Shown: piece by piece, positions 7,602 to 14,926 of the stretch | How positions within the stretch are numbered: the first letter of the stretch is position 1 | Layout: each line of letters opens with the position of its first letter | Assembly (NCBI GenBank): GCA_902784345.1 | Contig: CACZUD010000005.1 | Coordinates: forward strand, 1-52,115 | Length of the DNA stretch: 52,115 nucleotides | Direction of reading: 5' to 3' | DNA from: an uncultured Pseudomonadota bacterium | GTDB taxonomy: Bacteria > Pseudomonadota > Alphaproteobacteria > Rs-D84 | Program-made: the position numbers and the translations under genes | The notes under the pieces: generated by a model | Databases searched by the model: none | What the model saw: the letters and a program-made list of their open reading frames with translations, nothing else | Told to the model about the DNA's origin: nothing

Positions 7602-8561
7602 TTATACAACTTCTGTTACTGCGCGCAATGTGCCATCGCGCGAAAGTTGTACTACACGAATTTTCTTTTTCATTTCTGCTATTAAATCAGTTCTGTCGTA
7701 CGCAGGCTGAGTATGTAATATGCGATCTGCGAATGCAGCATAGGCGGCTTCGGCACTTTCGGCATGAATAGTTGTGTAAAAGTGGTCATGTCCGGTTCCT
7801 AACATTTCCCAAAGAACCGCCGCATTATCTGTTGATATTTCACCACCGATTATAACATCTGGGGTCATACGTACAACCAAATCTAGCAAGCGTGCATAAT
7901 TAAAATCGTTTGTTTGTTCTGTTCGGGACAACACAAAGTGAACGCGGTTTTTCTGTGGAACGCGGATTTCACGTGCGTCTTCGACAGTAATAACACGACT
8001 GTTTTGGTCTATCAATGTCAGCATGTGATTCAAGAAAGTTGTTTTACCAGTTGATGTTGCGCCGGAAATCAAAATCGGACTGCCGTCGTTAATCGCAGAC
8101 ATCAATCTTTCGTATGGGTCATCAGGACGCACATTTTTACGTGGTTTGACTTTTAACAACTTTTCACCGCGTTTAAGATGATAATTTTCAAAACTGGTTT
8201 CACTTACCCCACCGCCACGAATATTCAATGCCACGCCGCCAGTTACATCACTTTCGTCATACTGTACATTTGGTCCCGCAATAGCAGAAAAACGATGATT
8301 CCCAGGCAATGTCGCATAGACAACAGGTATACCGTGTATCGGGTCAAAAGGTCTTTCGTAAATGTTCGCAACAGTATGAATTAAATCAATCAAGTACTGT
8401 TTTGATAAAACTTCTGCATTATACGAAACCCATGGAACGCGGCCACCATTAAGACGCATCCATACTTCCCCGGCGTGATTTATCGCAATCTCTTCAACGA
8501 AAGACGGACGATAAAATTCTTCCAGTGGTTTCAATAAAGATTCAAGTACTACATTAGTCAT
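7602..8561 (-). CDS. VirB11/PilT-family secretion ATPase
   Basis: Hexameric ATPase that powers type IV secretion (VirB11 class) at the inner face of the inner membrane. Walker A GATSTGKT (167-174), the Asp-box ITVEDAREI (191-199), Walker B-like DVIIGGEI (235-242) and the His-box GHDHFYTTIHAESA (about 257-270) are present. The length of 319 aa matches VirB11 (about 340). I chose the ATG at 8561 because a TTGATT-17-TAAAAT promoter ends 7 bases before it; the longer ORF would run into that promoter. It lies about 18 kb from the VirB7/VirB8-like operon, so the secretion genes are dispersed, as in Rickettsiales-type systems. Followed by a hypothetical gene. Confidence 0.88.
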   Translation of the reverse strand: MTNVVLESLLKPLEEFYRPSFVEEIAINHAGEVWMRLNGGRVPWVSYNAEVLSKQYLIDLIHTVANIYERPFDPIHGIPVVYATLPGNHRFSAIAGPNVQYDESDVTGGVALNIRGGGVSETSFENYHLKRGEKLLKVKPRKNVRPDDPYERLMSAINDGSPILISGATSTGKTTFLNHMLTLIDQNSRVITVEDAREIRVPQKNRVHFVLSRTEQTNDFNYARLLDLVVRMTPDVIIGGEISTDNAAVLWEMLGTGHDHFYTTIHAESAEAAYAAFADRILHTQPAYDRTDLIAEMKKKIRVVQLSRDGTLRAVTEVV

Positions 8562-8617
8562 CTTTTTTATTTTATCATAAATCGTGGCTTGAATCAAAAT
8601 TGTTTATTTGCTAAAAT
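8562..8617. promoter_or_regulatory. Overlapping divergent promoters
   Basis: Minus strand: TTGATT (8592-8597), 17 bp, TAAAAT (8569-8574), then 7 bp to the VirB11-like ATG, predicted nearly leaderless. Plus strand: TTGAAT (8589-8594), 17 bp, TAAAAT (8612-8617) for the lipoprotein gene. The two -35 boxes overlap in the palindrome TTGAATCAA, so polymerase can occupy only one direction at a time. Confidence 0.7.
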
Positions 8618-10434: not shown

Positions 10435-11370
10435 ATGCAAAATAAAAAATGTCCTTTTTTTAATATATGCGGCGGTTGCCAGTTTGATTTCATTGGCGAA
10501 GATTACCGTACAGAAAAACTGAAAAAACTGCCGAAAATAGAATTTACGCACGACGCAATTTGGGGCGGCGTTGGTACGCGCAGACGGGCAGATTTTACTT
10601 TTGTAGATGGGCATTTTGGATTTTTTAAAAAGCAATCGAAAGACATAGTTGATGTGAATATTTGTCCGAATGTAGTTCCTGAAATAAATTCTGTGTTGAA
10701 AGATATTGCGCGTTTACCATGGCGTGGTGCAGGTTCTGTGTTGATTACAAAATGTGAAAACGGGATAGATGTTGCTGTAAACAGCGATATTCCATATTTC
10801 AGTGCTGATTTCAAAAACGCGGTTGAAAAATTGCCGCCACAAATAATTCGATTTACTTGGAACAGTTCGATTATTCGTAAATACTGTGAACCAGAAATTA
10901 AGTTTAACAACAAAATTATACCTTATCCGACAAATGCTTTTTTGCAGCCAACGGTCGAAACAGAACAAATCTTGCGAGATTTGGTTGTTAAATATGTTGA
11001 TGGTGCAAAACATGTGGCGGATTTATTCTGTGGTCTGGGTAATTTTACTTTTGCAACAAACGCAACAGGTTTTGATATTGTTGGCAATGGCATAAAGCGT
11101 GATTTGTTTAAAAAGCCGTTAACAGCCCAAAATTTAAATCAATATGATGCGGTGATAATGGACCCACCACGTGCCGGTGCAGAAAAGCAAAGTAAAGAAT
11201 TAGCCAAATCAAATATAAAACGAATCGTTTATGTTTCATGTAATCCGACAACTTTTGTTCGTGATAAAAAAATTTTGGAAAACGTCGGATACAAAATGAA
11301 TGTTGCAATTCCCGTTGATCAATTTATAGGTTCGACACATTGGGAAATATTCAGTGTGTTTGAAAAATAA
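10435..11370 (+). CDS. RlmD/TrmA-type RNA (uracil-5-)-methyltransferase, compact form
   Basis: SAM-dependent m5U methyltransferase acting on rRNA or tRNA. A 4Fe-4S set C6, C12, C15 and C77 (CPFFNICGGC and NICP), SAM motif DLFCGLGNFTF, MDPPRAGA and the nucleophile Cys in YVSCNPTTF are all present. There is no N-terminal TRAM domain, and the stretch between SAM motif I and DPPR is only about 45 residues, shorter than in E. coli RlmD, so the fold is pared down. It resembles the alphaproteobacterial subfamily with RDLFKKPLT before DPPRAGA. 311 aa versus about 430 in RlmD. The exact target base cannot be told. Confidence 0.88.
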   Translation: MQNKKCPFFNICGGCQFDFIGEDYRTEKLKKLPKIEFTHDAIWGGVGTRRRADFTFVDGHFGFFKKQSKDIVDVNICPNVVPEINSVLKDIARLPWRGAGSVLITKCENGIDVAVNSDIPYFSADFKNAVEKLPPQIIRFTWNSSIIRKYCEPEIKFNNKIIPYPTNAFLQPTVETEQILRDLVVKYVDGAKHVADLFCGLGNFTFATNATGFDIVGNGIKRDLFKKPLTAQNLNQYDAVIMDPPRAGAEKQSKELAKSNIKRIVYVSCNPTTFVRDKKILENVGYKMNVAIPVDQFIGSTHWEIFSVFEK

Positions 11371-11398
11371 AAAAAGCCACCCTTGCGGGTGGCTTTTT
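11371..11398. terminator. Bidirectional terminator shared by methyltransferase gene and sRNA
   Basis: Perfect 12-bp stem AAAAAGCCACCC-TTGC-GGGTGGCTTTTT. It ends the plus-strand methyltransferase transcript and, on the minus strand, the candidate sRNA. Confidence 0.9.
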
Positions 11399-11544
11399 CC
11401 GGATGCCCAGAAAGGAAGGAAAGGAGAAAAAGAAACGGGCATCCTAAACTTGTGTTTGGGCCCAAAGTCCAGAGGAGAGAGAATGTAGGAGGGAGTCTGA
11501 AAACCCTGGGCCCGATATAGTCAAACGATTTTCATCCCTTGACG
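11371..11544 (-). ncRNA. Candidate anti-Shine-Dalgarno ('cuckoo'-type) sRNA
   Basis: Minus-strand transcript of about 175 nt. Promoter TTGACA (11574-11579), 17 bp, TACATT (11551-11556). Then a small hairpin GTCAA/TTGAC; a hairpin closed by GGGCCC and CAGA/TCTG with a loop carrying CTCCCTCCT (about 11444-11516); a hairpin GGATGCCC/GGGCATCC (11400-11446) with a loop carrying CTCCTTTCCTTCCTTTCT; and a strong terminator. The loops mimic the 16S rRNA 3' end (CCUCCUUUCU). Established: alphaproteobacterial cuckoo/alpha-r15 RNAs present CCUCC motifs in hairpin loops to pair with ribosome binding sites. Assignment to that family is inference from architecture. The plus strand has purine-rich loops and no promoter of its own. 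Confidence 0.65.
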
Positions 11545-11550
11545 AATCGA

Positions 11551-11591
11551 AATGTAATACACAAAATGTCATTTGTCAAGTATTTTGTCAA
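11551..11591 (-). promoter_or_regulatory. sRNA promoter with TTGTCAA repeats
   Basis: Minus-strand -35 TTGACA and -10 TACATT for the candidate sRNA. Upstream, 11573-11591 reads TTGACAAAATACTTGACAA on the minus strand, matching the palindrome at the regulator promoter (21733-21751) at 16 of 19 positions. A shared operator is possible. Confidence 0.5.
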
Positions 11592-11737: not shown

Positions 11738-11986
11738 ATGACGCACGAAGATGTATGGCGCGCAATAGAAAAATTTGCAACAGAACATCATATGTCTTGT
11801 TCTGGATTGGCAAAATGCAGCGGTTTAGACCCAACCACCTTTAATAAAAGCAAACGTTGGTCCAAAGAAGGTCAACCCAGATGGCCATCAACCAACAGTA
11901 TTTCTAAAATATTGGCATCTACGGGTGCTTCATTGGAAGATTTTACTAAATTTATCCCGTCAAATGAACAGCATTCCGTGCGATAA
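11738..11986 (+). CDS. Small HTH protein (82 aa)
   Basis: A compact helix-turn-helix of the Cro/C1 type without a sensor domain. SCSGLAKCSGLDPTTFNKSKRW is split here as the turn region (about 20-40), followed by WPSTNSISKILASTGASLEDF, the pattern of small XRE regulators in Alphaproteobacteria, often the N-terminal part of phage repressor-like S24 proteins. The ATG at 11738 has a good AGGAG Shine-Dalgarno 6 bp upstream; a longer ORF from 11702 lacks one. It sits between the sRNA and the winged-helix gene, about 1.1 kb before the phage-derived cluster, which it could control. That role is a guess. Confidence 0.75.
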   Translation: MTHEDVWRAIEKFATEHHMSCSGLAKCSGLDPTTFNKSKRWSKEGQPRWPSTNSISKILASTGASLEDFTKFIPSNEQHSVR

Positions 11987-14620: not shown

Positions 14621-14926
14621 ATGTTCGGTTTAAAGAAAAAATGTGCAAGCGCAAAACCAGCTGCAAAACCAGCTGCAAAGAAAGCACCTGCAAAAAAAGT
14701 TGCTGTTAAAAAACCAGTTGCAAAAAAAGCACCTGCAAAAAAAGTTGCTGTTAAAAAACCAGTTGCTAAAAAAGTAGTTGCAAAAAAAGCACCTGCAAAA
14801 AAAGTTGCTGCTAAAAAACCAGTTGCTAAAAAAGTAGTTGCTAAAAAACCAGCTGCAAAAAAACCAGTTGCAAAAAAAGCACCTGCAAAAAAACCAGCTG
14901 CTAAAAAAGTTGTAAAGAAAAAATAA
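14621..14926 (+). CDS. Histone H1-like Lys/Ala/Pro-repeat protein (101 aa)
   Basis: Almost wholly composed of KKPVAKK / KAPAKK / KVVAKK units after a short head ([16 protein letters not shown]), like the C-terminal tails of eukaryotic H1 and bacterial H1-like proteins (Hc1, AlgP, BpH1). Such tails bind and compact DNA non-specifically. At DNA level the gene is a tandem array of roughly 45-bp units, open to slippage. AAAGGAGAG Shine-Dalgarno. It has its own promoter and three terminators downstream, so it is a separately controlled 'moron'-like unit inside the virion cluster. A role in condensing packaged or host DNA is speculation. Confidence 0.85.
14630..14920 (+). repeat. Tandem coding repeat in histone-like gene
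   Basis: Repeating units of GCACCTGCAAAAAAA, GTTGCTGTTAAAAAA, CCAGTTGCTAAAAAA and close variants, each encoding five residues, combined in 30-45 bp blocks. Copy number probably varies by slippage. Confidence 0.85.

Follow-up and report, generated by a model that had tools for sequence, protein, structure and literature searches.

Cuckoo RNAs (alpha-r14, NfeR1) are defined by the motif CCUCCUCCC in every hairpin loop (PMC3927594, PMC10746234); loci of the CcsR type often adjoin a DUF1127 gene (PMC10253847), and NfeR1 acts independently of Hfq (PMC3927594, PMC10746234, PMC10253847). EcpR1 (SmelC291/sra33), present in Sinorhizobium meliloti and other Rhizobiales, is also Hfq-independent, and its conserved loop represses dnaA and gcrA (PMC4414408). 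Known small RNA regulators of the replication initiator DnaA are few.

The window analyzed here, a stretch of 52,115 nucleotides of DNA from a member of the order Rs-D84, carries on its minus strand what is, judged by comparison of related sequences, a conserved and previously undescribed small RNA gene (Table 1). A first-pass annotation had described a small RNA gene with pyrimidine loops able to pair with Shine-Dalgarno regions, which agrees with the present results, and had taken it for a divergent or new member of the cuckoo/alpha-r15 group. The RNA is indeed new, but its membership in that group was not borne out. Its loops, CUCCCUCCUACAUUCUCUCUCC and GUUUCUUUUUCUCCUUUCCUUCCUUUCU, lack CCUCCUCCC; DUF1127 (PF06568) was absent from all 40 genomes of the order that were searched, leaving the RNA without such a partner; and an Rfam search with the window and the locus returned no family at the gathering score and nothing credible to E 10. 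The alpha-r15 RNA is AbcR, a family distinct from the cuckoo RNAs, and was not among the Rfam matches to E 10, so neither assignment was retained. The loops had also been said to copy the anti-Shine-Dalgarno tail of 16S rRNA. The match to the tail of this genome (GGAUCACCUCCUUUAUAG) is real but short, comprising CCUCCU (6 nt) in loop 1 and CUCCUUU (7 nt) in loop 2. What goes beyond chance is the conservation of the loops across species, rather than this short match. No 23S rRNA was found in this assembly.

Table 1. The predicted small RNA gene, its parts, and its neighbors in the window
Feature	Positions	Strand	Remarks
Small RNA transcript (predicted)	11369-11544	-	start near 11544, end in T-run near 11369-11371; based on promoter, fold, and terminator
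-35 box TTGACA	11574-11579	-	from sequence; second TTGACA 12 nt further upstream, 11586-11591
-10 box TACATT	11551-11556	-	17-nt spacer from -35; within palindrome-like GTGTATTACATT
GANTC site (GATTC)	11544-11548	.	CcrM-type methylation sequence; just downstream of -10 box
Small 5' hairpin	11520-11543	-	from fold; length and sequence differ among species
Hairpin 1	11458-11513	-	GGGCCC stem in window genome, other stems in other genera
Loop 1 CUCCCUCCUACAUUCUCUCUCC	11474-11495	-	22 nt, pyrimidine, closed by AGA/UCU
Hairpin 2	11401-11444	-	GGAUGCCC stem, double compensatory changes
Loop 2 GUUUCUUUUUCUCCUUUCCUUCCUUUCU	11409-11436	-	28 nt, pyrimidine; predicted dnaA-pairing region
Intrinsic terminator	11369-11398	-	from sequence and fold
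Divergent 82-aa Cro/C1-type HTH gene	11738-11986	+	protein MTHEDVWRAIEKFA...; Pfam HTH_26 just below cut-off
Convergent RlmD/TrmA-type RNA uracil-5 methyltransferase gene	10435-11370	+	context only

All elements named in the first-pass annotation (a minus-strand promoter of the form TTGACA-17-TACATT, a small hairpin, two stable hairpins, and a terminator) are present at accurate coordinates, and the loops, estimated at about 22 and 28 nt, measure 22 and 28 nt. The promoter on the minus strand ahead of the RNA is of the sigma-70 type. A TTGAC-type -35 box was found upstream of the RNA in 136 of 173 distinct relatives, with a spacer of exactly 17 nt in 118 of these 136, and the -10 box of the relatives mostly reads TATATT or TACATT. 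The predicted fold of the RNA has an energy of -68.7 kcal/mol, against -46.5 (SD 4.0) for shuffled sequences (z -5.55), and none of 200 shuffles was as stable. Both loops are predicted to be open: nucleotides are unpaired with a mean probability of 0.998 in loop 1 and 0.95 in loop 2. The terminator could double for the convergent methyltransferase gene.

Conservation fitting the plus strand only, which would have spoken against the annotated gene, was not seen. In a wobble test of strand, 86 G-U cells were counted against 9 A-C cells on the minus strand, which identifies the minus strand as the transcribed one; a plus-strand reading was rejected, with wobble pairs, promoter, and terminator all against it. 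Compensatory changes in the stems, proposed earlier as a check, were also evident. Within the genus, 12 of 26 pairs had changed on both sides and yet remained paired, compared with 5.3 expected, a count reached in none of 500 shuffles, and controls with slid pairings were far lower. These pairs were counted on the genus alignment (A1), the family-wide alignment (A2) being too gappy in the loops.

A DNA search recovered the RNA in all but 2 of 34 other genomes of the genus. With a covariance model built from 29 species and a match threshold of E up to 0.1, 172 of 201 genomes of the order matched, nearly all of them in one family and a handful only marginally; the window itself matched at 11370-11545 with 179.6 bits. 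The RNA-bearing family comprises the genus Candidatus Enterousia, whose hosts' guts include those of ruminants, horses, chickens, and termites, and 11 other genera. The literature assigns Candidatus Enterousia to the order Rs-D84, with genome sizes of about 1 Mb or less (PMC12306168). From one genus to another the stems are fully swapped (GGGCCC, GGCGCC, GCAGCACGGAU, CAAGGAA). Loop 1 and its closing AGA/UCU pairs were unchanged in all complete family copies that were read, and loop 1 was the same in 172 of 173 distinct copies, a set that was partly found by this very pattern. In loop 2, a core, CUCCUUUCCUUCCUU, is almost constant and the edges vary. Some further occurrences were observed. Three genomes (G087, G097, and G162) have two RNA copies on different contigs, reflecting duplication or strain mixture. 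Five contigs labelled viral (L204-L208) contain loop 1 of the RNA; they are probably host DNA, since the chromosomal HTH gene adjoins the RNA in at least L207 and L208. A possible distant relative with a single hairpin lies in a genome of another family (G038, L089:1501-1603); its loop retains AUUCUCUCUCCUC and its promoter reads TTGACA...TATAAC, although the E-value is weak.

The HTH gene is the divergent neighbor at 103 of 128 RNA loci, the exceptions being mostly in termite-gut genera. Of 136 RNA promoters, 87 have a GANTC site in the region of the -10 box and start, compared with a background of 0.29 sites per 100 bp; this count is not an independent statistic because the species are related. 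GcrA was found across the order, and the nearly complete genome G060 encodes a CcrM-like methylase with a RAMA domain. Hfq was found in none of 53 genomes of the order and in all six outgroups, which removes the RNA from the class of Hfq-dependent trans-acting small RNAs. Two other genes in the window may be recorded here: one at 14621-14926 (+) encodes a 101-aa Lys/Ala/Pro-rich repeat protein that is histone H1-like (NCBIfam Hc2-like, below cut-off), and one at 7602-8597 (-) a VirB11-like type IV secretion ATPase (below the NCBIfam cut-off), in a sub-megabase gut alphaproteobacterium.

The clearest candidate target of loop 2 is dnaA. In G060, loop 2 paired with translation starts better than all of 60 shuffles (z -3.8 for the top 20), and dnaA was its best partner (rank 1 of 1002 genes), with 21 base pairs at the ribosome-binding site and a predicted energy of -33.3 kcal/mol. 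In the window genome dnaA ranked 2 of 797, the pairing being imperfect, with a longest run of 9 nt and -24.5 kcal/mol, and in a partial genome of another genus it ranked 19 of 560. Start codons in these genome-wide rankings were assigned by simple rules, which misplaced some leaders, for example in G015. Loop 2 outperformed all of 300 shuffles when compared with 29 dnaA leaders (z -4.6). Several genera have perfect runs of 12-20 nt; the match of the leader to loop 2 is poor in several termite-gut genera. A 13-mer antisense to the RNA, GGAAGGAAAGGAG, is expected 0.001 times per genome. All genomes of the genus with the RNA contain it, one copy being that of the RNA gene, and at least two copies were found in 82 of 144 such genomes, the extra one being a second copy of the RNA in a few. 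Nine non-RNA copies could be placed, six from their loci and three (G016, G022, and G028) from coordinates, and every one of them lies just before dnaA. The 13-mer was absent from other families of the order, a read-backwards control gave zero throughout, and in sister families without the RNA the tract is missing from the dnaA leaders. The dnaA site also occurs in some genomes in which the RNA was not found, a point against the pairing; these assemblies are incomplete, but that of G023 is nonetheless 93 per cent complete. Another conserved segment, GCAGGTGGTTTTTACACTCTTG...GGCAGGAAACTCTTTT, lies upstream of the ribosome-binding site in the dnaA leader of the genus (L289-L299, L338).

The candidate target of loop 1 in relatives is the HTH gene. 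Over 107 HTH leaders it outperformed all of 150 shuffles (z -3.9), with runs of up to 15 nt (CCAGAGGAGAGAGAA before the AUG). In G205 (genus g29), where the HTH gene lies apart from the RNA, its leader nonetheless reads ACAGGAGAGAGAAAUG, and G060 has a diverged HTH paralog with AGGAGAGAGAA before its start. The complementarity of the loops to the dnaA and HTH leaders is thus, by these computed controls, statistically unusual. The window genome shows a weaker form of both pairings than its relatives: the pairing of its HTH leader with loop 1 is weak, at rank 130 of 797, and in its clade this leader is a poor match to loop 1 and a modest one to loop 2. Against translation starts in general, loop 1 did no better than shuffles in G060; something else may therefore underlie its strict conservation, and a role as a general anti-Shine-Dalgarno element was not supported. 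Among orthologs shared by G060 and a second genome, G000, four loop-1-complementary starts fell in the top 2 per cent, compared with 0.6 in shuffles (0 of 40). The candidates conserved in this way (virB3-like, SIMPL, Kef-type, and others) were not adopted, the register differing between species; the protein judged VirB3-like by eye matches loop 1 weakly in both G060 and G000.

Loops that consist almost purely of C and U and contain CUCC could belong to a generic repressor of the cuckoo style, which would bind many purine-rich ribosome-binding sites and privilege none. Such an RNA would account for the success of loop 2 over shuffles at many translation starts and for the several weaker candidates conserved between orthologs. 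However, loop 1 performs less well than its own shuffles at translation starts generally, the 13-mer occurs almost exclusively in the RNA and at dnaA, and a generic repressor has no need of 22-28 invariant letters. Specific targets fit better, because the two loops differ, extend far beyond the 16S match, and show conservation from end to end; generic repression is therefore regarded as unlikely. That loop 1 and its closing AGA/UCU pairs do not vary, and that the chaperone Hfq is missing, might instead mean that the loops serve a pyrimidine-binding protein (cold-shock protein, S1, or Rho) as landing site or decoy, base pairing being secondary. Such proteins usually accept sequence drift, however, and the near-unique dnaA 13-mer and the HTH leader matches would be left unexplained, which makes this explanation quite improbable.

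The dnaA match could also be a coincidence of shared ancestry, in which a strong, conserved Shine-Dalgarno tract is merely resembled by the complement of the loop. The dnaA tract is a good Shine-Dalgarno sequence by itself, polypurine tracts are common ahead of starts, and some assemblies without the RNA, including G023, retain the tract. Against this, the match depends on letter order (0 of 300 shuffles), an extra copy of a 13-mer expected so rarely is present in over half of the genomes, and the tract is lacking in the leaders of the RNA-less sister families, so that coincidence seems very hard to credit.

With moderate confidence, we favor the reading that this is an Hfq-independent, trans-acting RNA of the Rs-D84 family, of which loop 2 would block dnaA and loop 1, less certainly, the HTH regulator. 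The predicted partner of loop 2 is GGAAGGAAAGGAGAAA, the extended Shine-Dalgarno region that lies immediately 5' of the AUG in the dnaA mRNA. Occlusion of the ribosome-binding site would block translation of dnaA, leading to less DnaA and less initiation of replication, and the RNA may in this way serve as a replication brake. A duplex of 20 bp is topologically strained when its loop is closed, so the pairing would need hairpin 2 to be partly opened. Loop 1 may similarly base-pair at the ribosome-binding site of the divergent HTH gene; the regulator encoded by this gene probably acts in turn on the RNA promoter, so that the two would form a feedback pair. The GANTC site would provide a link to CcrM and GcrA, and a few more mRNAs are probably regulated too. 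A more elaborate scheme, which we consider doubtful, is that of a replication-control module in an Hfq-free, genome-reduced lineage, in which the RNA and the HTH regulator control each other, the GANTC at the start is read by CcrM/GcrA, loop 2 silences dnaA, and each passage of the fork resets the brake. If the favored reading is true, loops have been fixed across many genera while the stems turned over, in an order that lost Hfq, and the RNA would be a clear-cut example of how reduced genomes regulate by RNA without Hfq. All of the evidence was computed from MAGs.

Analogous to the cuckoo RNAs (CcsR1-4, NfeR1), the RNA has several hairpins with variable stems and conserved, anti-Shine-Dalgarno-like pyrimidine loops. 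Cuckoo RNAs, however, carry identical short CCUCCUCCC loops, whereas the two loops here differ from each other and span 22-28 nt. The antisense RNA of Bacillus subtilis dnaA (PMC12112137) likewise acts on DnaA production through the dnaA leader, a route that is predicted for the present RNA. In contrast to that antisense RNA, which is cis-encoded and overlaps the dnaA leader (PMC12112137), the RNA described here has a separate gene and would act in trans through hairpin loops. The resemblance to EcpR1, whose loop binds dnaA at the start as well as the ribosome-binding site, lies in a trans-acting small RNA with variable stems and a strongly conserved loop directed at the dnaA ribosome-binding site, the pairing being, in the present case, a prediction. 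EcpR1 has two stem-loops, a loop motif UCCGCCGCAUCU, and UCCUCG in SL2, and its gene lies near divK-pleD (PMC4414408). Both UCCGCCGCAUCU and UCCUCG are absent from the present RNA sequence and the locus also differs; moreover, gcrA is not a predicted target, its leader ranking 643 (loop 1) and 276 (loop 2) of 1002, and membership in the EcpR1 family was rejected. Because the defining features of neither the cuckoo RNAs nor EcpR1 are present, the RNA is filed as a new family of the loop-pairing kind that blocks ribosome-binding sites. EcpR1 is its closest working precedent, though unrelated in sequence, and if the predicted pairing holds, the RNA would be a second alphaproteobacterial RNA to target dnaA, having arrived at the same target as EcpR1 from an unrelated sequence.
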